A DNA stretch of 29,464 bases from a virus. Under the pieces are notes generated by a model. The model was not told the origin of the DNA, made no database searches, and saw nothing but the letters and a program-made list of their open reading frames with translations. The stretch spans positions 1 to 29,464 of the IMG/VR virus record IMGVR_UViG_3300020442_001787, one strand, 5' to 3'. Of the stretch, positions 18-28,803 are shown one piece after another; the first letter of the stretch is position 1, and each line of letters begins with the position of its first letter. The position numbers and the translations under genes were made by a program.

Positions 18-1025
18 ATGTTAATATTGTACACACAGCCTAGGTGCCATTTTTGTGAGATCATGAAACGGATGTTGAGCAAAATGGACGAAGCCGAAGG
101 CTTTCAGACTATAGACATTACCAAAGACGCAGAAGCTAAAAACTTTATGCGAAAGAAAGGTCATAGGACTGTTCCTATGCTTTATTGGAGAGTGCCTGGT
201 CATGATGTGTGGATAAACAAAGACATTGACACTAGAAAATTAACTGGTGAAAATCTAGGTAAAAGAATTACAGATGCTATATCTTCAACAAAAAAGAATA
301 ATTGTTTAGTCTTTGATGTTGACGGAACTATAACACCTAGTCGTCAATCTATTGATCCTGCTCATAAAGAAAAACTTATGGCATTAGCAGAGACAGTTGA
401 CATTTATATTGTCACAGGATCTGACTTTCCAAAAACAAAAGAACAACTTGGAGATCTTACTAAGGTAGTCAAAGGCTGCTATCAATGCGCAGGCAATGAA
501 TTATGGGTAAATGATAAATTAGTACAGTCTGCTCCTGAATTTAAAATGCCGAAGATGATGTTTGCTTGGTGTAAACAAAAAATGGATGAAAGCAAGTTTC
601 CTCATAGAACAGGTTCTAAACATATAGATCTTCGTCCGGGTATGATGAATTTCTCTATTATTGGTAGAGGTTGTACTGATGAACAAAGACAAGAATATAT
701 TGAATTTGATAATAAAAACGATGAAAGAGAAGAACTAGCTAATGAGTTTAATGATATGTTTCATACATACTCGGCTCAAATAGCTGGCGAAACTGGTATT
801 GACATATGTGAAAATGGAAAAGATAAAGGACAGGTGTACAAACCGCTAGAAGAGATGTATAATAGTATTATCTTTTTTGGTGATGATACTCAAGAAGGTG
901 GAAATGATTATCCATTTGCATCTCAGATACAATCGTTTCCACATCGATGCTTTCATGTAACTGGACCAGAAGATACATTTGAAACTTTAGAAGCAATTGA
1001 GAAACTATTTAATGAATCCCTTTGA
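18..1025 (+). CDS. Glutaredoxin-phosphomannomutase-like (HAD) fusion protein
   Basis: Two domains in one 335-residue chain. Residues 1-88 are glutaredoxin-like, with the redox pair CHFC (Cys10, Cys13) and a TVP cis-proline motif at 51-53. Residues about 95-335 match the eukaryotic-type alpha-phosphomannomutase branch of the HAD superfamily: DVDGT at 100-104 (nucleophile Asp100, acid Asp102), VTGSD at 132-136, the sugar-phosphate motif RPGMMN followed by IIGR (206-217), and the acidic loop FFGDDTQEGGND (287-296). The second part is about the length of a complete PMM (roughly 245 residues). Expected role of that part is interconversion of mannose-6-P and mannose-1-P, or a related sugar phosphatase or mutase; the glutaredoxin part would reduce disulfides. 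Start ATG 18 overlaps the stop of an upstream frame (codons 1-18 end in TAA). The last 14 bases overlap gp62. The fusion is visible; substrate is inferred. Confidence 0.85.
   Translation: MLILYTQPRCHFCEIMKRMLSKMDEAEGFQTIDITKDAEAKNFMRKKGHRTVPMLYWRVPGHDVWINKDIDTRKLTGENLGKRITDAISSTKKNNCLVFDVDGTITPSRQSIDPAHKEKLMALAETVDIYIVTGSDFPKTKEQLGDLTKVVKGCYQCAGNELWVNDKLVQSAPEFKMPKMMFAWCKQKMDESKFPHRTGSKHIDLRPGMMNFSIIGRGCTDEQRQEYIEFDNKNDEREELANEFNDMFHTYSAQIAGETGIDICENGKDKGQVYKPLEEMYNSIIFFGDDTQEGGNDYPFASQIQSFPHRCFHVTGPEDTFETLEAIEKLFNESL
835..863 (+). promoter_or_regulatory. Early-type promoter TGTACA-N17-TATAAT inside the first gene
   Basis: TGTACA at 835-840 and TATAAT at 858-863 are separated by exactly 17 bases, as at six other sites in this window. 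A TG stands directly before the -10, but not in the exact TGN position. It lies inside the upstream reading frame and would start a transcript about 140 bases before gp62 and regA. Confidence 0.6.
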
Positions 1026-1398
1026 ATTTTTAAATGCTATTAATACAACTAAAAAAGATGTTATAACAGATGATATAACCGAAAAGGCATATAATAGCTT
1101 TATGGTTAATCGTTCACTTTCTTACTTTAATGACACGGTTGTACTAGCTAACGAGATGAATCGTTATCACCACCTTGATAATAAACTACAATTTGACTTT
1201 CTTATAAATATGGTTAGAAAGCGCAAACGCTTTTCTAAATGGATAAAGCCTCAGATTGAGAGTGACGTCGAAGTGGTAAAAGAATATTATGGCTATAGCA
1301 ATGAGAAAGCTCGTCAAATATTGCCACTTCTGTCACCCGAACAAATAAATGGGTTAAAGAAGAAGGTGAATAAAGGTGGAAGAACAAACAATAGTTGA
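1012..1398 (+). CDS. 62: Sliding-clamp loader small subunit (T4 gp62-like)
   Basis: A 128-residue protein starting MNPFEFLNAINTTKKD and containing NRSLSYFNDTV, a KKRFSKW-like block and YSNEKARQILPLLSPEQ. This is the pattern I know from gp62 of marine T4-type phages, which are shorter than T4's own 187-residue gp62. gp62 joins gp44 to load the gp45 clamp for the DNA polymerase. ATG 1012 is chosen because it begins the conserved MNPF sequence; a TTG at 997 only adds residues encoded over the upstream gene. It overlaps the preceding gene by 14 bases and regA by 23, the classical 62-regA order. Confidence 0.9.
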   Translation: MNPFEFLNAINTTKKDVITDDITEKAYNSFMVNRSLSYFNDTVVLANEMNRYHHLDNKLQFDFLINMVRKRKRFSKWIKPQIESDVEVVKEYYGYSNEKARQILPLLSPEQINGLKKKVNKGGRTNNS

Positions 1399-1786
1399 GT
1401 GGTCTCCAGCTACAATGCTGGAAGTAACTCTAAATGAACCAGATGATTTTCTAAAGGTTCGTGAAACATTGACACGAATAGGTGTCGCATCCCGAAAAGA
1501 TAAAAAATTATTTCAGTCTTGTCATATATTGCATAAACAAGGCAGATATTTTATTGTACATTTTAAAGAATTATTTTTACTTGATGGTAAAAAAGCTAAT
1601 CTAGAAGAAAACGATGTAGCTCGTAGAAATACTATTACAACGTTAATGTCTGATTGGGGTTTAGTTGAAATTCAAAATAGTGAAGAAGCTAAACCATTAG
1701 CGCCATTGAGACAAATAAAAATTATTCCGTTTAAGGAAAAAGACCAATGGGAACTTTGTCCTAAATATAATATCGGAAATAAGTAG
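1376..1786 (+). CDS. regA: Translational repressor RegA
   Basis: A 136-residue protein with the RegA signature blocks FLKVRETLTRIG, QSCHILHKQGRYFIVHFKEL and LDGKK, followed by a basic ARRNTI segment. RegA binds early phage mRNAs around the initiation codon and blocks their translation. The frame opens with GTG 1376. An internal ATG at 1415 would begin at MLEVTL, where T4 RegA begins, but marine T4-type RegA proteins often carry a similar N-terminal extension, so I keep the GTG. It overlaps gp62 by 23 bases and its TAG shares a base with the next gene's GTG. Confidence 0.92.
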   Translation: MEEQTIVEWSPATMLEVTLNEPDDFLKVRETLTRIGVASRKDKKLFQSCHILHKQGRYFIVHFKELFLLDGKKANLEENDVARRNTITTLMSDWGLVEIQNSEEAKPLAPLRQIKIIPFKEKDQWELCPKYNIGNK

Positions 1787-2382
1787 TGTATGTAAAGGTT
1801 ATCGATAACTTTTTACCAGAACATACTATATTAAAAATAGATAGAGAACTAAAAAATATAGTATGGCCTAAACATTTTACTAGAGCCGGCTCTGACATGT
1901 ATGAAAGTACAGAGCTAGAGACTTTACCTGTCCTTAGACAACTATACTTGCAATTTTCAAGTAGGCATTGGTTAAGTTATCTGGAACATGAGATAGGTGT
2001 AGAAGGAATATTGCCTGATCCTCACCTCATTGGAGCTGGTTATAGTGAAATAAGAAACGGCGGTGATCTCAAACCACATATAGATTTTAATTGGAACGAT
2101 TCTATAAAACTTTATAGGGTTGCTTCATTAATAATATATCTTACTGATAATCATAAAGGTGGCGAGTTTAAGTTTGAGGATAGAGATCCTATTGAGACAA
2201 AACGAAATAGGGCTCTTGTATTTGAACATAGTGAAACCATTCGACATATGGTAATGCCTGTAACAGGAATACGTAGAAGCGTTAGATTTTTTTATTATGC
2301 TTCAAAGTTAACGGCACCAGAAGGTTATCATAGAAGCCTTTATGGACTAGATAATGGAAAACCTGTAGATGTCAGAGAATAA
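1786..2382 (+). CDS. 2-oxoglutarate/Fe(II)-dependent oxygenase (prolyl-4-hydroxylase-like)
   Basis: A 198-residue single-domain protein. The double-stranded beta-helix iron site is visible as KPHIDFNW (His-x-Asp), followed by YLTDNHKGGEF typical of the P4H fold, and a distal His with a basic 2-oxoglutarate anchor in HMVMPVTGIRRSVRFFYYAS. Such enzymes hydroxylate protein side chains, sugars or nucleobases and are frequent in marine T4-type phages; the substrate is unknown here. Start is GTG 1786, sharing a base with the regA stop; no ATG is available nearby in frame. The 3' end overlaps the next gene by 14 bases. Confidence 0.85.
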   Translation: MYVKVIDNFLPEHTILKIDRELKNIVWPKHFTRAGSDMYESTELETLPVLRQLYLQFSSRHWLSYLEHEIGVEGILPDPHLIGAGYSEIRNGGDLKPHIDFNWNDSIKLYRVASLIIYLTDNHKGGEFKFEDRDPIETKRNRALVFEHSETIRHMVMPVTGIRRSVRFFYYASKLTAPEGYHRSLYGLDNGKPVDVRE

Positions 2383-3502
2383 ATTTTATATTCCTAGAAA
2401 ATGTCCCTTTGATGGTAAAAGAGGTTATCTACAAAATAAAGATATACAATGGATTTTAAAGAGTATCGGCGTAAAAAGATTAAAGCCAGACACAGTCATT
2501 GATCCTAAGTGTAATAATTTTTTAATTTGTAATTATTTAGATATACAAGATTTTAAATTTGGAAAAGACATACCTTTAAACAAAGACATTAAAAATTTCT
2601 GTATAAAAAATAATATAAAAATTATAGTATGTTTTTCTAGAGAGCATATTCATATTAGAAGAAGATTTGATTCTAAAGATTATTACTATATGTTTAATGT
2701 AGATATGTCTTCAGAAAAAGCTATTGGATTTAGTTTTTTTGATCATGCATATGCACTGGGTAGATTTGATCATCATGGTAAAATAATCAATAACAATGTA
2801 GAAAAAACTAAAAAGTTTTCTATAGTGTTAGGAACACTTAATAAAATTAGTAGAATATGGTGGTGTGTAAAACTTATTCATGATAACTTACATAATCATC
2901 CAGATATACTTTTTGGTAAAATAAGTAGTCCACTACAAAAAGATAAGTATACTCTTGGTTTTATTGATGTTGAACCTGACCGTATGTTTAAATACGACAA
3001 ATATCTTATAGAAACGTTAATAGAAAATAAAGATTATATAGAACAAGATACCTTTATAGAAAATGATGTAAGTATTGAACGTTTATATGTAAAAGGAAGA
3101 GAATGGTGTATCCCAGATGAATTTTCTAGTACATTAATTAATATTGTATTCGAAACTCGTCCATATGATTGGGGTTATGGTTCTTTAACAGAAAAAATAT
3201 GGAAACCTATAATAGCAGAAATGCCTTTCATATGGGTATCATTTGAAAATACTAAACCATACTTAGAAAATATGGGATATAAATTTCACGATTTTATAGA
3301 TTATAGTTTTGATTCAATTGAAGACTATAAACTTAGATTTAGAGCAGTTTATAAAGAATTTGAAAGATTAAATGCTTTTTCATTTGATGAATTAAAAGCT
3401 ATGGTTGATAATGAAAAACATATTACAGAACATAATAAAAAAGTATTTTATAATACAGATTATGATAAAAGGTTGATGAATGTCTTTTCAAGCATTAAAT
3501 GA
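2369..3502 (+). CDS. Glycosyltransferase-like protein
   Basis: A 377-residue protein without signal peptide or obvious membrane segment. The useful region is the C-terminal third: NIVFETRPYD, GSLTEKIWKPIIAEMPFIWVS and LENMGYKFHDF. This resembles the nucleotide-sugar binding half of a phage and marine bacterial glycosyltransferase group with the TEKxxKPI signature (exostosin or fucosyltransferase-like GT-B folds). The N-terminal half is lysine- and asparagine-rich and I do not recognise it. Neighbouring oxygenase and aminotransferase genes suggest a sugar-decoration role, possibly on virion proteins, host surface or DNA. Start ATG 2369 overlaps the oxygenase gene; the 3' end overlaps the aminotransferase gene by 23 bases. 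Confidence 0.6.
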   Translation: MSENKFYIPRKCPFDGKRGYLQNKDIQWILKSIGVKRLKPDTVIDPKCNNFLICNYLDIQDFKFGKDIPLNKDIKNFCIKNNIKIIVCFSREHIHIRRRFDSKDYYYMFNVDMSSEKAIGFSFFDHAYALGRFDHHGKIINNNVEKTKKFSIVLGTLNKISRIWWCVKLIHDNLHNHPDILFGKISSPLQKDKYTLGFIDVEPDRMFKYDKYLIETLIENKDYIEQDTFIENDVSIERLYVKGREWCIPDEFSSTLINIVFETRPYDWGYGSLTEKIWKPIIAEMPFIWVSFENTKPYLENMGYKFHDFIDYSFDSIEDYKLRFRAVYKEFERLNAFSFDELKAMVDNEKHITEHNKKVFYNTDYDKRLMNVFSSIK

Positions 3503-4111: not shown

Positions 4112-4119
4112 TATAAATA
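4112..4119 (+). promoter_or_regulatory. T4-type late promoter TATAAATA upstream of hsp20
   Basis: Exact match to the T4 late -10 element recognised by the gp55 sigma factor with gp33 and the clamp. It lies in a 72-base non-coding gap. A start six bases downstream would fall on the GGG at 4124-4126, the base of the leader hairpin. The 8-mer is expected by chance a few times in DNA this AT-rich, but three of four copies in the window fall in the small intergenic fraction. Confidence 0.7.
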
Positions 4120-4170
4120 ATATGGGTGCCGAATGATCGGGCCCAATATAACCTTGCTAGTCATAGGAGG
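4120..4170 (+). promoter_or_regulatory. hsp20 leader with two hairpins; ROSE-like RNA thermometer candidate
   Basis: Hairpin I: ATAT-GGGT-(bulged G)-CCG at 4120-4131 pairs with CGG-GCCC-(bulged A)-ATAT at 4138-4149 around the loop AATGAT. Hairpin II: CTTGCT (4153-4158) pairs with AGGAGG (4165-4170), the Shine-Dalgarno of hsp20, around the loop AGTCAT. The pairs are C-G, U-G, U-A, an opposed G-G, C-G and U-A. A UUGCU strand facing AGGA with an internal G-G is the hallmark of ROSE elements, which melt on warming to free translation of small heat-shock genes in alpha- and gammaproteobacteria. The structure was drawn by hand. Confidence 0.6.
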
Positions 4171-4175
4171 AAAAA

Positions 4176-4640
4176 ATGACAGGTAATTTCGTATATCCCC
4201 GAAACGCATTCTTAGGTTTCGATCACATCTTCGATCAGCTGGAGTCTATTCACAGCCACGCGAAGGATACTTATCCCCCACATAACGTAATTAAACACGA
4301 CAATATGAAATATGAAATTGAACTTGCTGTTGCAGGTTTTAATAAAGATCATATCGATATTGAAGTCAAAGACCACGTGCTCACTATCACAGGTGATAGA
4401 CCGCAGAGGCGTGATCAAAATAGTTATGTTCACAAAGGGATTAGTGCTCGAAGGTTTAAGAAGTCGTATCGATTAAGCGAATACACAGAAGTCACTGGAG
4501 CAGACATGATGGATGGGATTTTGACGGTCAATTTAGAAGTCGTCCTACCAGAAGAGAAGCGTCCTCGTAAAATCAATATTGGTCAAAACGAGGTAATCAA
4601 TGACAACTCTACTAAAGAACTTCTTACAGAAACTACGTAA
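4176..4640 (+). CDS. hsp20: Small heat-shock protein Hsp20 (IbpA-like)
   Basis: A 154-residue alpha-crystallin-domain chaperone. Recognisable blocks are YPPHNV at the domain start, YEIELAVAGFNKDHIDIEV, LTITGDR, the HKGISARRFKKSYRL segment typical of class A IbpA-type proteins, GILTVNLEV, and the C-terminal PRKINI (I-x-I type anchor). It holds unfolding proteins in a refoldable state; Hsp20 genes are a regular feature of marine T4-type phages and may help capsid assembly. ATG 4176 lies five bases after a perfect AGGAGG, which is itself paired in the leader hairpin. It overlaps the next gene by 41 bases. It is probably expressed late from the TATAAATA at 4112. Confidence 0.95.
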   Translation: MTGNFVYPRNAFLGFDHIFDQLESIHSHAKDTYPPHNVIKHDNMKYEIELAVAGFNKDHIDIEVKDHVLTITGDRPQRRDQNSYVHKGISARRFKKSYRLSEYTEVTGADMMDGILTVNLEVVLPEEKRPRKINIGQNEVINDNSTKELLTETT

Positions 4641-4791
4641 CTACGGACAATACAGACGATCACTGAAGGAATTAAACCAACTCACCGATCGTGAACTAAA
4701 TGATATCGGCATCGGCCGAGGTGATATTCATCGTGTAGCAAAAGGTGATACATCCTATAGAATTAATGATAATTTAAAAGGATGGGTTTAA
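4600..4791 (+). CDS. DUF1127 (YjiS-like) small protein
   Basis: A 63-residue basic protein with the DUF1127 signature RRSLKELNQLTDRELNDIGIGRGDI, normally found in small alpha- and gammaproteobacterial proteins. In alphaproteobacteria DUF1127 proteins are linked with RNA binding and with phosphate, carbon or stress responses, but no single function is settled. ATG 4600 is preceded by GAGG and lies inside the hsp20 3' end, in another frame, so the pair is probably translationally coupled. A DUF1127 protein in a phage points to an alphaproteobacterial host. Confidence 0.85.
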   Translation: MTTLLKNFLQKLRNYGQYRRSLKELNQLTDRELNDIGIGRGDIHRVAKGDTSYRINDNLKGWV

Positions 4792-4955
4792 TGACAACAG
4801 TAATGTCTTGTATCTTCTCGTGCTTATCGGGATTGTGGTCTTCATTAGATCGGACTACAATGTTGATAGGTTACTCACGGGCAGCGGCAGAACTAACGCG
4901 GCTTGGGTATCACGAGGAGTCTAAACGTTGCTTGATGGAAATTAAGAAGTTATAA
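4791..4955 (+). CDS. Small hypothetical protein (54 aa)
   Basis: A 54-codon frame opening with ATG 4791, which shares a base with the DUF1127 stop. The N-terminal half is mildly hydrophobic (MTTVMSCIFSCLSGLWSSL). The C-terminal half, SRAAAELTRLGYHEESKRCL plus MEIKKL, looks like the helical tail found in or next to many alphaproteobacterial DUF1127 proteins. It may be a DUF1127 partner. The stop codon TAA overlaps the TATAAATA element at 4951. Real-gene status rests on the coupled start and sensible composition. Confidence 0.55.
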   Translation: MTTVMSCIFSCLSGLWSSLDRTTMLIGYSRAAAELTRLGYHEESKRCLMEIKKL

Positions 4956-4958
4956 ATA
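4951..4958 (+). promoter_or_regulatory. T4-type late promoter TATAAATA upstream of doxX
   Basis: Exact TATAAATA 22 bases before the ATG at 4981. The predicted transcript would start near 4964 and carry a short leader of CA repeats followed by AGAGG as ribosome site. A similar ACACACAGGAG leader precedes the gene at 5624. Confidence 0.65.
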
Positions 4959-4980
4959 AGGTAACACACACAGAGGTAAT

Positions 4981-5388
4981 ATGTTAAAAAAGATAGTTGA
5001 AAAAATTCCAGAATTTTGTATGAGTCATTGGCTTTTTCGTATTCCTCTGGCTATTGTGTTTCTACAACAAGGCCTAAGTAAACTGCCTTTCTCTATTGAA
5101 GATGCAGAAGCATTTGAATTACCAGCTTTAGTTTGGTGGTTTGTAATCTATGGAGAGATAGGGGCAGGCTTAGGCCTTCTAGTAGGCGGCGCCGTAATAT
5201 GGCAAAAGTTTAAAGAAATTAATGATATTATAACTCGGTTTAGTGGAATTACAATTTGTAGTATTATGACTGGAGTTATATGGGTGGGTCAACCTGATAG
5301 TTTTATGGATGTATTATTATATGATAATCTTCATGTACTACTTTGGGTTGGCGGATTATATTTTGCATTAAGAGGAAACAGAACATGA
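4981..5388 (+). CDS. DoxX-like integral membrane protein
   Basis: A 135-residue hydrophobic protein with about four membrane segments. The first contains FRIPLAIVFLQQGLSKLPF, matching the R-x-x-L...F...G..K(L) start of DoxX/SURF4-type proteins; the second holds WWFVIYGEIGAGLGLLVGG with the family's conserved E-x-x-x-G-x-x-L; the last is NLHVLLWVGGLYFAL. DoxX proteins are linked to quinone or thiosulfate redox reactions and to oxidative-stress membrane complexes. Placement in a late block with the pseudoazurin fits a respiratory or redox role, which is inference. Overlaps the next gene by 4 bases. Confidence 0.7.
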   Translation: MLKKIVEKIPEFCMSHWLFRIPLAIVFLQQGLSKLPFSIEDAEAFELPALVWWFVIYGEIGAGLGLLVGGAVIWQKFKEINDIITRFSGITICSIMTGVIWVGQPDSFMDVLLYDNLHVLLWVGGLYFALRGNRT

Positions 5389-6274: not shown

Positions 6275-6470
6275 AGAAGAAGCTGAAAAAGAAGCAAAAG
6301 AAACTTATGCACGATTTTTAGATTGGTGCAAGAAGGGGACATTTATTATATTCGGATGTCTACTTATTGTTGCTAGTTGTAACTTTGGTGTTGAAGAAGG
6401 TAATAGTAAAACTGGATCTCAATATAATGGGGAACAGTATGACCCATATAATTTAAATAAGGACGAGTAA
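6264..6470 (+). CDS. Single-span membrane protein, possibly aa3 cytochrome oxidase subunit IV-like
   Basis: A 68-residue protein: an acidic and basic N-terminal helix, then TYARFLDWCKKGTFIIFGCL continuing into one membrane span (about residues 16-40), then a polar tail. The layout, a short N-terminus with TY..F..W.K.G before a single helix, resembles the small bacterial aa3-type cytochrome c oxidase subunit IV of alphaproteobacteria, but the match is short. An alternative is a lipoprotein-like spanin or another phage membrane protein. It sits two genes before pseudoazurin, another respiratory-chain protein. ATG 6264 follows AAGG; the stop overlaps the next ATG. Confidence 0.4.
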   Translation: MTPREEAEKEAKETYARFLDWCKKGTFIIFGCLLIVASCNFGVEEGNSKTGSQYNGEQYDPYNLNKDE

Positions 6471-6805
6471 TGAAAGAAAGTATAAAAGCATTTCCCCCTT
6501 TAGCTATGTGGATTGTAGTTAAAGATTGGTGGAAGAGCGTAATGACAATACAGAATTCGCCATTAAGAAAATTACCGCCTCAACTTGGCCTTATGGTATT
6601 TTCGATATTATCATTGATGTGGAGTGGAATATTTGCATCAATTATAAACAATCCACATATTTTTGGATGGACCGCGGGAGCACACATATTAATAGTATGT
6701 GGTATCTTTATAACCGCAATAGTATATGAACAAGCCGAAAAAAATGCTACTTCATCACATATGACTAAATATAGTGGTCGAGCGGCTAACGGCGAACATG
6801 AGTAG
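6470..6805 (+). CDS. Small integral membrane protein, unknown function
   Basis: A 111-residue protein: an amphipathic start (ESIKAFPPLAMWIVVKDWWK), then about two strongly hydrophobic spans (LGLMVFSILSLMWSGIFASI and AGAHILIVCGIFITAIVY) and a polar C-terminus. No enzymatic motif. It is coupled to the preceding single-span protein (TAATG) and lies nine bases before pseudoazurin, so the three are probably one late transcription unit. I have no family name to offer. Confidence 0.65.
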   Translation: MKESIKAFPPLAMWIVVKDWWKSVMTIQNSPLRKLPPQLGLMVFSILSLMWSGIFASIINNPHIFGWTAGAHILIVCGIFITAIVYEQAEKNATSSHMTKYSGRAANGEHE

Positions 6806-10454: not shown

Positions 10455-11358
10455 GAGCGTCTTTGATAATAAAACACATCGTAGAATGGACTTCGAGAAC
10501 TGGCAACAGTTTTCGGAGCTTTTGCACGATTTGTCTAAACAACCACTAAAGGGAAAGAAGGATGCGCAACTTATATCACCAGCTGTATATGTTCCTGATA
10601 CAACTAGGGCCAACAAGAATGTTGATAATTGGGCAGGTTGGGCTGCTATTGATGTTGATGATCACGCATTTAAGGGGAATCTAGAGGATGAACTTAATGA
10701 GCGCTTTGGTAATTACACATATGTGTGTTATAGTACCGCTAGTAGCACTCATGAATTTCCGAAGTTTCGTGTGGTTTTCCCGCTTAAAACTCCAGTTGAA
10801 CAAGATAAAATCAAGCACTTCTGGTATGCGCTCAACTCGGAGTTGGGTAATATGGCAGACAAACAGACTAAAGACTTATCTCGTATGTATTATATTCCTG
10901 CAACTTACGATAACGCTAATAACTTCATCTTCTCTAATGATAATGGCGAATATGTTGACCCCATCAAACTCATGGCAAAATATGAGTACGCACAAAAATC
11001 AAGCAAAAACTTTATCGACCGACTCCCTGAAGCTTTACAAAAACAGGTTCTTGAACACAGAAAATCAAAACTAGATAATACTAATATTGTATGGACAAGT
11101 TATCGTGATTGTCCGTTCTGGCCACAGAAATTAGCCAGCGAATATCAGATTATATCTAATACAGGTTGGTATCATAAAATGTATCAGATCATGGTGGCTA
11201 TTGCTGCTAGAGCTGTTGAGCGTCAATATCCAATAAACTCAAATGAGATAACTAATCTGTGTCGTGAGTTTGATATGGAAACTGGCAATTGGTATGAAAA
11301 TCGTCCTATGGACGTAGAAGCAGATAGGGCACTAGAATATGTTTACAAAAATGTCTAA
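10429..11358 (+). CDS. Archaeo-eukaryotic primase (PrimPol)-like protein
   Basis: A 309-residue protein. It carries the three AEP-type signatures in order: DVDD (Asp75-x-Asp77, metal motif I), STH at 106-108 with nearby Arg114 in KFRVVFPL (motif II), and KDLSRMYYIP with Asp149 and Arg152 (motif III). The C-terminal third is helical, like the primase-associated domains in phage AEP proteins. Start: ATG 10429 is five bases after GAGGA and is preferred over ATG 10417. No DnaG-type primase (gp61) is in the window, so this could serve as or supplement the primase; it could also be a translesion or repair polymerase. Family placement is by motif only. Confidence 0.5.
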   Translation: MAISLTLFKSVFDNKTHRRMDFENWQQFSELLHDLSKQPLKGKKDAQLISPAVYVPDTTRANKNVDNWAGWAAIDVDDHAFKGNLEDELNERFGNYTYVCYSTASSTHEFPKFRVVFPLKTPVEQDKIKHFWYALNSELGNMADKQTKDLSRMYYIPATYDNANNFIFSNDNGEYVDPIKLMAKYEYAQKSSKNFIDRLPEALQKQVLEHRKSKLDNTNIVWTSYRDCPFWPQKLASEYQIISNTGWYHKMYQIMVAIAARAVERQYPINSNEITNLCREFDMETGNWYENRPMDVEADRALEYVYKNV

Positions 11359-12873: not shown

Positions 12874-13652
12874 TGGTTACAATTATTGCTGGTCCATGCC
12901 AGCACGAAACTTTATTTAAATCTCTTGACATAGCAGAACATTGTCAAGAGATTTGCGATAAGTATGGAGTTGAATATATATTTAAAGCAAGTTATGATAA
13001 AGCTAATCGTACATCTCTTGAAGGAGAACGAGGTCTAGGTTTACATAAAACTGTTAGTGATTTTTTACAAATGAAAGATTCACTAGACGTAAAGATTCTA
13101 ACAGACGTACATACTGTTGAGGAGATTCATTTTATTCATGACATAGTAGATGTGCTACAAATACCAGCATTCCTATGTCGGCAAACAGATCTTATAACAA
13201 AAGCTTGTGAAACAGATTGTATTGTAAATATTAAAAAAGGCCAGTTTCTGGCACCGTGGGACGTAGAAGGAATTTTGTCTAAGACTGAACAAGCCAAAGA
13301 AGTCTGGATAACTGAAAGAGGAACTAGTTTTGGTTACGGACGTCTTGTTAATGATTTCACTGGGATGCAGTATTTACTCGATCGTCTTGGCGAGAGATTT
13401 GTTTATGATGTTACGCACTCAGTCCAATTACCGGGTGGTAAAGGAAGCTCCTCTGATGGTAATCGTGAGTATGTTCCTGGTCTGTGCAGGGCTGGGTCCG
13501 CTCTTGGCATTTCTTCTTTTTTTATAGAGGTACATCAAGAACCGGATAACGCACCATCCGATGGACCTAACATGTTGAAACTCGAAGACTTCGATGAAGT
13601 TGTAGAAAATATAATGGAATATAATTATGCCAAACATAGAGATAACGACTAA
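12873..13652 (+). CDS. kdsA: KDO-8-phosphate synthase (KdsA), metal-dependent type
   Basis: A 259-residue (beta/alpha)8 enzyme that condenses phosphoenolpyruvate with arabinose-5-phosphate to KDO-8-phosphate. Signature blocks: IAGPC (4-9), FKASYDKANRTS (37-48), FLCRQTDL (100-107), NIKKGQFLAPWD (119-130), ITERGTSFGYGRLV (146-159), THSVQLPGG (181-189) and APSDGPN (227-233). Cys9, His182, Glu219 and Asp230 fall at the four metal ligands of metal-dependent KdsA; the Cys in place of Asn marks this class. Length is near the usual 270-285. Coupled to the next gene, PEP carboxykinase, which makes its substrate PEP. KDO normally enters LPS core; a phage copy could feed surface or virion glycans. Confidence 0.9.
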   Translation: MVTIIAGPCQHETLFKSLDIAEHCQEICDKYGVEYIFKASYDKANRTSLEGERGLGLHKTVSDFLQMKDSLDVKILTDVHTVEEIHFIHDIVDVLQIPAFLCRQTDLITKACETDCIVNIKKGQFLAPWDVEGILSKTEQAKEVWITERGTSFGYGRLVNDFTGMQYLLDRLGERFVYDVTHSVQLPGGKGSSSDGNREYVPGLCRAGSALGISSFFIEVHQEPDNAPSDGPNMLKLEDFDEVVENIMEYNYAKHRDND

Positions 13653-14811
13653 ACCCACTGGACGTTCTCCTGAAAATAAAGTTCACTTTGGAAATAGATC
13701 TAATCTTTTAGATATGACTAGACCTAAATATAATAAGGTCGGTGAAGAAAAATATTTTTGGGAATTCTATGAAGATCTAAACGAATATGATTTTAAACAC
13801 AATCTTGTTTTTCATACATCAGGATTTTGTTTTAGAGTAGAAACTAATGATGATCGTCATGCTCAGTTTGTGCGTAATATGTTTACAGTTGTAGATAATC
13901 CGTATGAACATACTGCCGATTGGACTATACTCCATAATACAGAAATTAAATGTCCTCCAACTATCGCCGTGCATTTAGACGAACATACTATGTTAATTGG
14001 CGGAACGACCTTTCTCGGAGAAATTAAGAAAGGTGTGTTTAGTATTCTAGGTTTTGAATTACCAGATCAAAATATTCTTCCGATGCATTGCGCAGCATTT
14101 ACATGGGAAAATACAACTAATCTTATGTTTGGTTTGAGCGGTACAGGTAAAACAACTCTTAGTAGTGATCCTGAGTTTGGTCTTATATCTGATGATGAAG
14201 TTTCTTGGAATGATAAAGGCATTCGTATTATAGAAACGGGTTGCTATGCTAAGTCAGAAGGACTAACTCCTGAAACGCATCCAACAATTTTTAACGCAGT
14301 AGAAGAAGCAAGAAATCGTGATACTCTTGTAGTAGAAAATCCTGGAGCTGCCAATGCTAGATTAAGTTATCCTATTGATTGTGTTAGTGTTGCTCATATA
14401 GAACAAGATCAATTTCAACATCCAAAAAATATATTCTTTCTAACTATGGATGCGACTGGTAGTTTTCCTCCTGTAAGTAAAATATCAGGTGATACTGTCA
14501 AACGTTTCTTTGAGACAGGATATACAAGTCAAATGCCTGGTACTGAAGCAGGTAGCGATGAGATAAAGAAAACATTTTCGCCTTGTTATGGTTCTCCATT
14601 TATGCCACGAAAGATAGAGCTATATACTAACATGCTAATGGAAAAGATAGAAGACACTGATGCGAATGTATATCTAATTAATACAGGTATGGATAAAGAT
14701 GGTAAAAGGTTTCCATTAGAATTTACTCGTGATTGTGTAAAGAGTGCAATGCGTGGAGGAGCAGAAGATAATAGCAAAGTGGTATCAGATATTTTAGAGG
14801 ATTTACTATGA
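13627..14811 (+). CDS. pckA: ATP-type phosphoenolpyruvate carboxykinase, shortened
   Basis: A 394-residue protein with the PckA order of motifs. GRSPENK (12-18) is the family's RSPKDK; GEIKKGVF (131-138) carries the metal/PEP lysines; LPMHC (151-155) gives the active-site His154; P-loop GLSGTGKT (169-176), kinase-2 motif SDDE (188-191), ARLSYPI (244-250) with Arg245, and YLINTG (349-354) follow. The enzyme converts oxaloacetate and ATP to PEP, CO2 and ADP. Usual length is about 530; here the N-terminal 50-60 residues before RSP and several loops are missing, while catalytic residues remain. It overlaps kdsA by 26 bases, which argues that its PEP feeds KdsA. PckA in a phage is unusual. Confidence 0.85.
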   Translation: MPNIEITTKPTGRSPENKVHFGNRSNLLDMTRPKYNKVGEEKYFWEFYEDLNEYDFKHNLVFHTSGFCFRVETNDDRHAQFVRNMFTVVDNPYEHTADWTILHNTEIKCPPTIAVHLDEHTMLIGGTTFLGEIKKGVFSILGFELPDQNILPMHCAAFTWENTTNLMFGLSGTGKTTLSSDPEFGLISDDEVSWNDKGIRIIETGCYAKSEGLTPETHPTIFNAVEEARNRDTLVVENPGAANARLSYPIDCVSVAHIEQDQFQHPKNIFFLTMDATGSFPPVSKISGDTVKRFFETGYTSQMPGTEAGSDEIKKTFSPCYGSPFMPRKIELYTNMLMEKIEDTDANVYLINTGMDKDGKRFPLEFTRDCVKSAMRGGAEDNSKVVSDILEDLL

Positions 14812-27107: not shown

Positions 27108-27214
27108 ATCCCCGAATAGTCAGGCAAGTTGCTCTGGAAACCTTAAAAAAGGTAAATAAACCCATAGATGATTGAGGATATACAGGACCTGGGGGCAGAA
27201 CCCAGCGCCTCCAC

Positions 27215-27267
27215 CAAATTTACTCTGTAGAGTAAAAATTAATAATTTACTTTGTAGAGTAAATTTG
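27215..27267 (+). repeat. Intervening hairpin of the permuted tmRNA (22-bp stem)
   Basis: 27215-27236 pairs with 27246-27267 over 22 continuous pairs, three of them G-U, around the loop AATTAATAA. The stem contains two tandem near-identical short palindromes (TTTACTCTGTAGAGTAAA and a close copy). It starts at the CCA end and finishes two bases before the first G of the coding piece, so it is stacked on the acceptor stem. It should be excised during maturation. Confidence 0.85.
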
Positions 27268-27316
27268 ATGGGGGCGAGTTAGGATCGACTGGTATTTGAG
27301 TCTATAAATCACAAAT

Positions 27317-27361
27317 GCAAACAATAACTTTGCACCATCTGGATTTGCACTAGCTGCATAA
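27317..27361 (+). other. tmRNA proteolysis-tag reading frame
   Basis: Resume codon GCA at 27317 and stop TAA at 27359-27361 encode ANNNFAPSGFALAA. The ALAA end is the canonical ClpXP/protease-recognition end of ssrA tags, and the N-rich start resembles alphaproteobacterial tags such as that of Caulobacter (AANDNFAEEFAVAA). Confidence 0.92.
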
Positions 27362-28033: not shown

Positions 28034-28041
28034 TATAAATA
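28034..28041 (+). promoter_or_regulatory. T4-type late promoter TATAAATA upstream of the desaturase
   Basis: Exact TATAAATA just after the stop at 28031-28033 and 33 bases before the desaturase ATG. The leader would include GGGAGGG as ribosome site. Confidence 0.7.
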
Positions 28042-28074
28042 ATAGCGTCACGGCTTAAATAGTGCGGGAGGGCC

Positions 28075-28803
28075 ATGGTTAGCCCTCATTATTATTGGTG
28101 GAATATGGCTTACGGAATTTTTGTTTTACAAATTTTATCTTATCTAAGTGTTATTCCGATGCTAATGTATGCAAGTTGGCATCATTACATTATTGCATAC
28201 TTTTTATATTTTTTATTTGGCGGTCTTGGTATGATCGTCGGCTATCATAGATTGCATAGCCATAGAAGTTTTCATGTACCATTATGGTTTGAAAAACTTA
28301 TTACGATCTTTGCAACAATGAGTCTTACCGGTCCAGCTATAGATTGGGTTGCTATTCATAGAGCTCATCATAAATGGCATGATACTCCAAAAGATCCACA
28401 TAGTCCAGAACATAAAGGCAGACTTAAGGTACACTTTTTAACTATGTTTGCAAAAGTAAGTCCTAAATTTGCTATGGACTTAATTAGAACACCATTCTAT
28501 ATGTGGCAAAGAAAATATTATTTTTATATCATTGCGGCATACGCTGCTATACTATATCTTATAGATCCACTCGCAGTAGTTTATGCTTGGTTATTTCCAG
28601 CATTCTTAACTGTATTTTTAGGCACACTTATTCTAAGTACTTCTCATAGAGAAGGTAAAGCACACGATGATTTTCTACTTGGAATATTAACGTGGGGCGA
28701 TGCATTTCATCATACTCACCACGAAAAACCCATGCAAAATAGGCTACATAAATATGACATATCCGGTTGGATTATTGAAACTTTTTTTAAGGTAAAAGCA
28801 TGA
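28075..28803 (+). CDS. Fatty acid desaturase (delta-9 acyl desaturase type)
   Basis: A 242-residue membrane di-iron desaturase. The three histidine boxes are HRLHSH (58-63), HRAHH (95-99) and HHTHH (212-216), the last in the context WGDAFHHTHH. Hydrophobic segments at about 15-55, 75-90 and 148-190 frame them. It introduces a double bond in membrane fatty acids, using a host electron donor. It is shorter than most acyl-CoA or acyl-lipid desaturases (about 300) but has all iron ligands. Late expression from 28034 suggests membrane fluidity changes late in infection. It overlaps the next gene by 4 bases. Confidence 0.92.
   Translation: MVSPHYYWWNMAYGIFVLQILSYLSVIPMLMYASWHHYIIAYFLYFLFGGLGMIVGYHRLHSHRSFHVPLWFEKLITIFATMSLTGPAIDWVAIHRAHHKWHDTPKDPHSPEHKGRLKVHFLTMFAKVSPKFAMDLIRTPFYMWQRKYYFYIIAAYAAILYLIDPLAVVYAWLFPAFLTVFLGTLILSTSHREGKAHDDFLLGILTWGDAFHHTHHEKPMQNRLHKYDISGWIIETFFKVKA

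Follow-up and report, generated by a model that had tools for sequence, protein, structure and literature searches.

Does a virus place a host-type temperature switch in front of its own chaperone gene? The question was raised by positions 4120-4175 of a 29,464-base IMG/VR virus record that carries genes for a phage DNA polymerase and for other replication functions; the whole of this stretch is here called the window. The initial annotation had read these positions, from the letters, as a ROSE-like RNA thermometer. We reached the same assignment. The leader is very probably a short two-hairpin ROSE-like thermometer with the architecture of the Pseudomonas ibpA element, homologous to bacterial ROSE and used by a T4-like phage.

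The sequence read, in order, TATAAATA, a bulged-G hairpin, a UUGCU/AGGAGG hairpin over the Shine-Dalgarno (SD) sequence, and then hsp20 (Table 1). ROSE elements lie directly 5' of a small heat-shock gene, and here the hsp20 ATG followed at 4176; the small heat-shock gene claimed earlier was a solid call by both PF00011 and phrog_432. They also have at least one stable hairpin before the sensor hairpin. The strong 5' hairpin described earlier was found again as hairpin I, with G4128 bulged and a predicted energy of -12.0 kcal/mol.

The third feature of ROSE is a U(U/C)GCU strand imperfectly paired with the SD sequence, and this was present (4154-4158 against 4165-4170). RNAfold of the leader gave (((.(((....))).))), in which C4153-U4158 paired with A4165-G4170 around a G4156/G4167 mismatch. 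This reproduced the proposed pairing of CUUGCU with AGGAGG and its internal G-G. In an alternative and equivalent register G4156 was bulged instead of mismatched. Judged from the sequence and the predicted fold, G4156 would be the extra G of ROSE, bulged or in a G-G pair.

Table 1. Features of the hsp20 leader and neighboring genes in the window, and loci of an orphan protein family with ROSE-like leaders in other contigs
Source	Feature	Position	Strand	Basis
Window	TATAAATA, T4-type late promoter -10 element	4112..4119	+	Motif conserved in relatives; T4 late promoter sequence per PMC3037559
Window	Hairpin I, 5' stabilizing, bulged G4128: UGGGU-G-CCGA / UCGG-GCCCA	4123..4145	+	Single-sequence folds; compensatory changes
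Window	Hairpin II, ROSE sensor hairpin: CCUUGCUA paired with UAGGAGG (SD)	4152..4170	+	RNAfold of leader; covariance models R1 and RF02523
Window	UUGCU anti-SD motif, G4156 mismatched or bulged	4154..4158	+	U[U/C]GCU with SD enriched before hsp20
Window	Predicted competing start-codon hairpin: UUGCU-A-GUCAU (4154-4164) with AUGAC-A-GGUAA (4176-4186)	4154..4186	+	RNAfold
Window	Shine-Dalgarno AGGAGG	4165..4170	+	Sequence
Window	hsp20, alpha-crystallin small heat-shock protein, 154 aa	4176..4640	+	PF00011, 68.5 bits, 6e-19; phrog_432, 130 bits, 1e-37
Window	DUF1127 small protein, start codon 41 nt inside hsp20 end	4600..4791	+	PF06568, 5e-14
L368	Orphan-family locus	2531-2803		
L412	Orphan-family locus	10544-10768		
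L517	Orphan-family locus	741-968		
L535	Orphan-family locus	2084-2299		
L537	Orphan-family locus	6319-6531		
L564	Orphan-family locus	10512-10721		
L583	Orphan-family locus	1071-1364		
L493	Orphan-family locus	1385-1600		

The Rfam family ROSE_3 (RF02523) matched the window leader over its full length, with hairpin I, the bulged G, the UNGCU strand, the SD sequence and the AUG in register, and was the only plausible Rfam family at this site. A search with ROSE families had been proposed as a check; the family that matched was RF02523 and not the RF00435 or RF01832 named there. A search of 54 records with RF00435 gave no match and was uninformative, since the controls were equally silent.

The window scored 21.4 bits (E 0.04 over 501 bases, rising to 2.4 when the whole window is searched with all of Rfam) and most other phage leaders scored 19-40, below the RF02523 gathering score of 43, which is a detection cut-off and not a biological feature. 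Being under this cut-off, the window leader is missed by standard annotation. ROSE_3 was also the best of all Rfam families at the phage hsp20 leaders tested. In about 20 phage records, that of Agrobacterium phage Atu_ph07 among them, it matched the hsp20 leader at E values of 1e-8 to 1e-3 per record, and in one phage contig with regA just upstream (L250) it reached 44.1 bits, above the gathering score. Taken alone, the window is weak, only suggestive, evidence for ROSE, and it is the comparison with other leaders that decides.

For this comparison, 80 viral loci encoding Hsp20 proteins 74-99% identical to that of the window were fetched. Hairpin I and UUGC with the SD sequence were kept in all 78 readable leaders, with the letters varying much; no close relative that keeps hsp20 had lost the UUGC strand, in line with the original assignment. 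U[U/C]GCU followed by an SD sequence occurred in 125 of 130 unique hsp20 leaders, against 9 of 269 leaders of other ORFs in the same viral contigs, the nine including several copies of one gene.

When each region was folded singly, free of any alignment, an upstream hairpin of at least 6 bp was present in 130 of 133 unique leaders. A single-base bulge on the 5' side of hairpin I was found in 121 of the 133, and the bulged base was G in every one of the 121. In shuffled regions such a bulge, of any base, appeared in 15.6%.

A covariance model (R1), built from 15 near phage relatives only, was run over 70 sources (299 kb, both strands). It returned 53 matches, in 53 of the sources; all of them lay at hsp20 leaders and stopped at the start codon, and the rest of this material gave no match. 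In the alignment fitted to the model, 98.6% of the cells were paired and double changes were seen in 9 of 14 pairs; structures slid along the alignment paired only 33-53%. Double-change cells numbered 150, against 41 after shuffling, in this same model-fitted alignment. An unfitted MAFFT alignment of the 15 leaders gave 97.1% pairing with two double-change pairs. A MAFFT alignment of 40 leaders was left out of the counts, its arms being misaligned; the clean subset, the model-guided alignment and the alignment-free folding were used instead.

In hairpin I, 8 of the 9 pairs showed compensatory changes. The SD helix was nearly invariant, with mainly a U.G to C-G change (UUGCU versus UCGCU) and an outer pair with double changes. 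Because the SD helix hardly varies, the covariation supports mostly hairpin I. The preservation of structure by compensatory change that characterizes ROSE was therefore strong in hairpin I, with little variation to judge by in the SD helix, and the covariation suggested as a check in phage hsp20 leaders was borne out chiefly in that hairpin. At the level of sequence, the comparative evidence for a ROSE-like leader is decisive.

The promoter region was considered next to the RNA. TATAWATA stood before hairpin I in 44 of 51 unique leaders of the window family (1.7 expected) and in all 35 of the C48C1 family (0.5 expected). A sigma32-like -35 element was found in none of these 51 and 35 leaders. 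The late motif was absent from the HTVC115P-like family. In the window, where TATAAATA has four copies, the copy at 4112-4119 lies a few bases before the presumed transcript start, as in T4-type late promoters. The T4 convention would put this start at about 4124-4126, the base of hairpin I, which is where the initial annotation had placed it.

In T4, a hairpin lock on some late genes (e and soc, for example) silences read-through early transcripts, while late transcripts start inside the hairpin and escape. The late promoter and this precedent invite the same explanation here. Such a lock misfits the layout, however: with the late promoter upstream of hairpins I and II, late transcripts would carry the SD hairpin just as early ones do. 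We consider this explanation very improbable.

Nearly all of 80 bacterial relatives fetched carried the motif; these were mostly alphaproteobacterial, with some beta- and gammaproteobacteria. The phage-built R1 model found hsp20 leaders of Pelagibacteraceae, Woeseiaceae and other bacteria with E values of 1e-5 to 1e-3. Since bacterial relatives share the leader and R1 finds it there, the phage and bacterial ROSE elements are, most simply, homologous as judged from these matches, and we take this homology to be nearly certain. The leaders of Pelagibacteraceae and other alphaproteobacteria had the same two-hairpin layout. They differed in the promoter: among 72 bacterial hsp20 leaders, a sigma32-like -35 (by a loose pattern) lay upstream in 14 and a late-type motif in two. 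From these motifs, the phages appear to keep the thermometer RNA but with a viral late promoter replacing the heat-shock promoter.

In an Hsp20 tree the phage and bacterial groups were intermixed with weak deep support, and the group of the window formed a supported phage clade. The mixing suggests transfers. It also raises the question of whether hsp20 was simply taken from a host together with a ROSE leader that now sits idle in the phage, as the sharing of the leader with bacterial relatives would allow. Several observations speak against such passive carriage. Compensatory changes occurred inside phage families, the promoter was swapped while the RNA was kept, the leader was conserved across distant phage groups, and ROSE-like leaders were found before other viral genes. 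Neutral drift of hairpin II was not seen in the phages. An idle leader is therefore scarcely credible.

The thermometer reading was also approached by folding at different temperatures. The energy for opening the ribosome-binding site of the window leader fell from 6.7 to 4.7 kcal/mol between 25 and 42 C, and other genes of the window behaved alike. The RNAfold check proposed at the outset gave a drop in this opening energy with warming; it did not discriminate the leader from other genes. Thermodynamic folding being non-decisive, the temperature response of the phage leader is one that we infer.

When coding sequence was added, RNAfold favored UUGCUAGUCAU paired with the start region AUGACAGGUAA, leaving the SD sequence open. 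In the model, this start-codon hairpin would block initiation too. In the leaders of the family, AGUCA was present in the loop of the sensor hairpin in 25 of 43, GUCA or GUUA after the SD sequence in 9, and neither in 9. In 34 of the 43, one of these sequences could thus pair with UGACU of the start region, which may lock the start codon a second time.

The indistinguishable temperature slope and the predicted start-codon hairpin are both compatible with dampening independent of temperature, in which the imperfect hairpin, helped by the start-codon hairpin, sets a low and constant rate of translation. A plain hairpin would have no need of the conserved signature, in which U[U/C]GCU carries an extra G and alternates between U.G and C-G, and which confers heat response elsewhere (PMC3669281, PMC11342760). 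We regard simple dampening as unlikely.

As a thermometer, the leader may work as follows. Late in infection, the phage-modified polymerase would start at hairpin I, which would shield and insulate the 5' end. Hairpin II, imperfectly paired, would keep the SD sequence closed at moderate temperature, and warming would melt it, so that Hsp20 is made. The double control of the host, by heat-shock sigma factor and RNA thermometer, would have become viral late transcription plus RNA thermometer. With heat-shock sigma control so replaced, the RNA would be the only remaining heat sensor. The loss of the heat-shock promoter makes the phage leader a clean natural test of the effect of the RNA alone.

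The main rival of the thermometer reading, or its partner, is autorepression of the kind exerted by IbpA. Free phage Hsp20 would bind the leader and block its own translation, and titration by unfolded or assembling virion proteins would release it; the ROSE fold would then act chiefly as an operator, or as operator and thermometer at once. At the presumed equivalent of R93 of IbpA, the window protein has Arg (KGISA-R-RF), as do 105 of the 148 unique phage proteins in which the motif was found. Self-repressing small heat-shock proteins of the IbpA type combine this Arg with basic residues at 97/98; by the same presumed matching, the window protein carries Lys at 97 and Ser at 98.

In Escherichia coli, IbpA uses R93 to repress the mRNA from which it is translated, which bears a ROSE element, and this repression is lifted without heat when aggregation-prone proteins are overexpressed (PMC10474464). 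Late transcription also coincides with capsid synthesis, and a scaffolding role has been suggested for cyanophage Hsp20 (PMC3037559). On the other hand, Lys takes the place of R93 in 43 of these 148 proteins, a substitution (R93K) that in E. coli does away with repression. Most phage proteins also have Ser or Gln instead of the second basic residue, K98. The C48C1 family is among those with Lys and still keeps the ROSE leader, so autorepression alone does not explain the conservation. We hold autorepression to be possible, at well under even chances.

Among known systems, the thermometer that most resembles the phage leader is the short ROSE-like element of Pseudomonas ibpA (PMC3669281), a validated two-hairpin element. 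It has the same two hairpins with a GC-rich hairpin I, an adjacent start codon, a leader of about 60 nt and a small heat-shock gene downstream. In it the second hairpin alone melts and hairpin I stays closed (PMC3669281). The Pseudomonas element is bacterial and transcribed by sigma32. In the phage, a T4-type late promoter stands before the leader, the sensor hairpin is shorter and, in the subfamily of the window, part of the sequence is able to pair with the start codon. Deletion of the motif G weakens the heat response of the ROSE elements tested (PMC3669281, PMC11342760). ROSE1 of Bradyrhizobium hspA (RF00435) and the E. coli ibpA ROSE share the UUGCU/SD core, with a G-G contact or a bulged G, but have three to four hairpins.

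The phage RNA thermometers known to the Robo-Therm authors are those of lambda cIII, SPbeta blyA (fourU) and a gut Caudoviricetes sigma70 (fourU) (PMC11182007). These are likewise temperature-dependent leaders of phage genes, but they precede other genes and are three isolated cases, none of them ROSE, whereas the leaders described here would form one conserved class in many phages. No earlier report of a viral ROSE element was found in the open-licence literature on ROSE and thermometers in phages, cyanophages and pelagiphages. A thermometer class conserved among some of the sea's most abundant viruses would give a direct route to asking how infection responds to warming. In cyanophages hsp20 counts as a core gene, and a role in scaffolding has been guessed at (PMC3037559); the leader is a candidate answer to how this chaperone, which has no clear role, is controlled.

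A host-type ROSE leader on a viral chaperone, first noted in this one phage, was found far beyond it. By inspection, 13 of 16 named phages checked, cyanophages and jumbo phages included, had a ROSE-like leader before hsp20. Motif and hairpin were present in C48C1, Atu_ph07, Phosso, HTVC115P, HTVC103P, AG-345-P14 and Mosig, and also in Melnitz-3, S-PM2, S-CAM3, P-TIM68, S-CREM1 and S-H38. The leader of PA5oct had the variant UUGCG. The motif was absent from the inspected hsp20 leaders of S-TIM5, S-B68 and the contig L229. Contigs resembling freshwater cyanophages had both motif and hairpin. Two pattern scans that used DNA only, blind to the protein, had hsp20 immediately downstream at 85 of the 120 loci listed by one and at 104 of the 120 listed by the other.

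In the hsp20 leaders of eight further contigs (L217, L221-L226 and L246), ACGCU replaced U[U/C]GCU next to a similar hairpin I, as a candidate variant of the anti-SD strand. The unverified record of 'Pseudomonas phage Y7' (L087, OQ572409.1) held what appeared to be the host Pseudomonas ibpA with its ROSE element (ROSE_3, 69.2 bits). It was set aside as a viral case, being probably bacterial DNA in a phage record.

The same pattern scans also placed ROSE-like leaders before other viral genes. One contig (L404:1325-3294), which also holds phage endonuclease and exonuclease genes, had a viral groES-groEL operon with a full ROSE-like leader (R1, 35.7 bits) and an ATAAATA motif. A search for relatives of this viral GroES gave back the same contig and one further relative at 33% identity. 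A family of orphan proteins of 69-97 residues, probably helical and matching no Pfam family, also had such leaders (Table 1). In L535, hsp20 adjoined the orphan-family gene. A viral dnaK (L562:1-1213, minus strand), on a contig with a phage ribonucleotide reductase, had a weak ROSE-like leader (R1, 16.1 bits). These groES-groEL, orphan-family and dnaK leaders, recognized by sequence, are leads and not proofs.

Somewhat better than even, in our judgment, are the chances that ROSE is an old and general viral element. It would serve hsp20 in jumbo phages and in T4-like phages, among them some that infect cyanobacteria, SAR11 and methylotrophs, and also groES-groEL, the orphan family and perhaps dnaK. 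Together these would make up a phage heat regulon in which the host heat-shock promoter has been swapped for the viral late promoter.

Some other features of the window were recorded. The DUF1127 gene that overlaps the end of hsp20 is probably translationally coupled to it; as a general partner of hsp20 it was rejected, the overlap being present in only 10 of 79 relatives. A permuted tmRNA of alphaproteobacterial type (79.6 bits) at 27164-27361 suggests that the host, or the source of the gene, is alphaproteobacterial or SAR11-like. Positions 13627-14811 encode an ATP-type phosphoenolpyruvate carboxykinase (PF01293, 306 bits), a metabolic gene unusual for a phage. At 4951-5388 and 28034-28803, TATAAATA precedes the genes for a DoxX-like membrane protein and a fatty acid desaturase, respectively.
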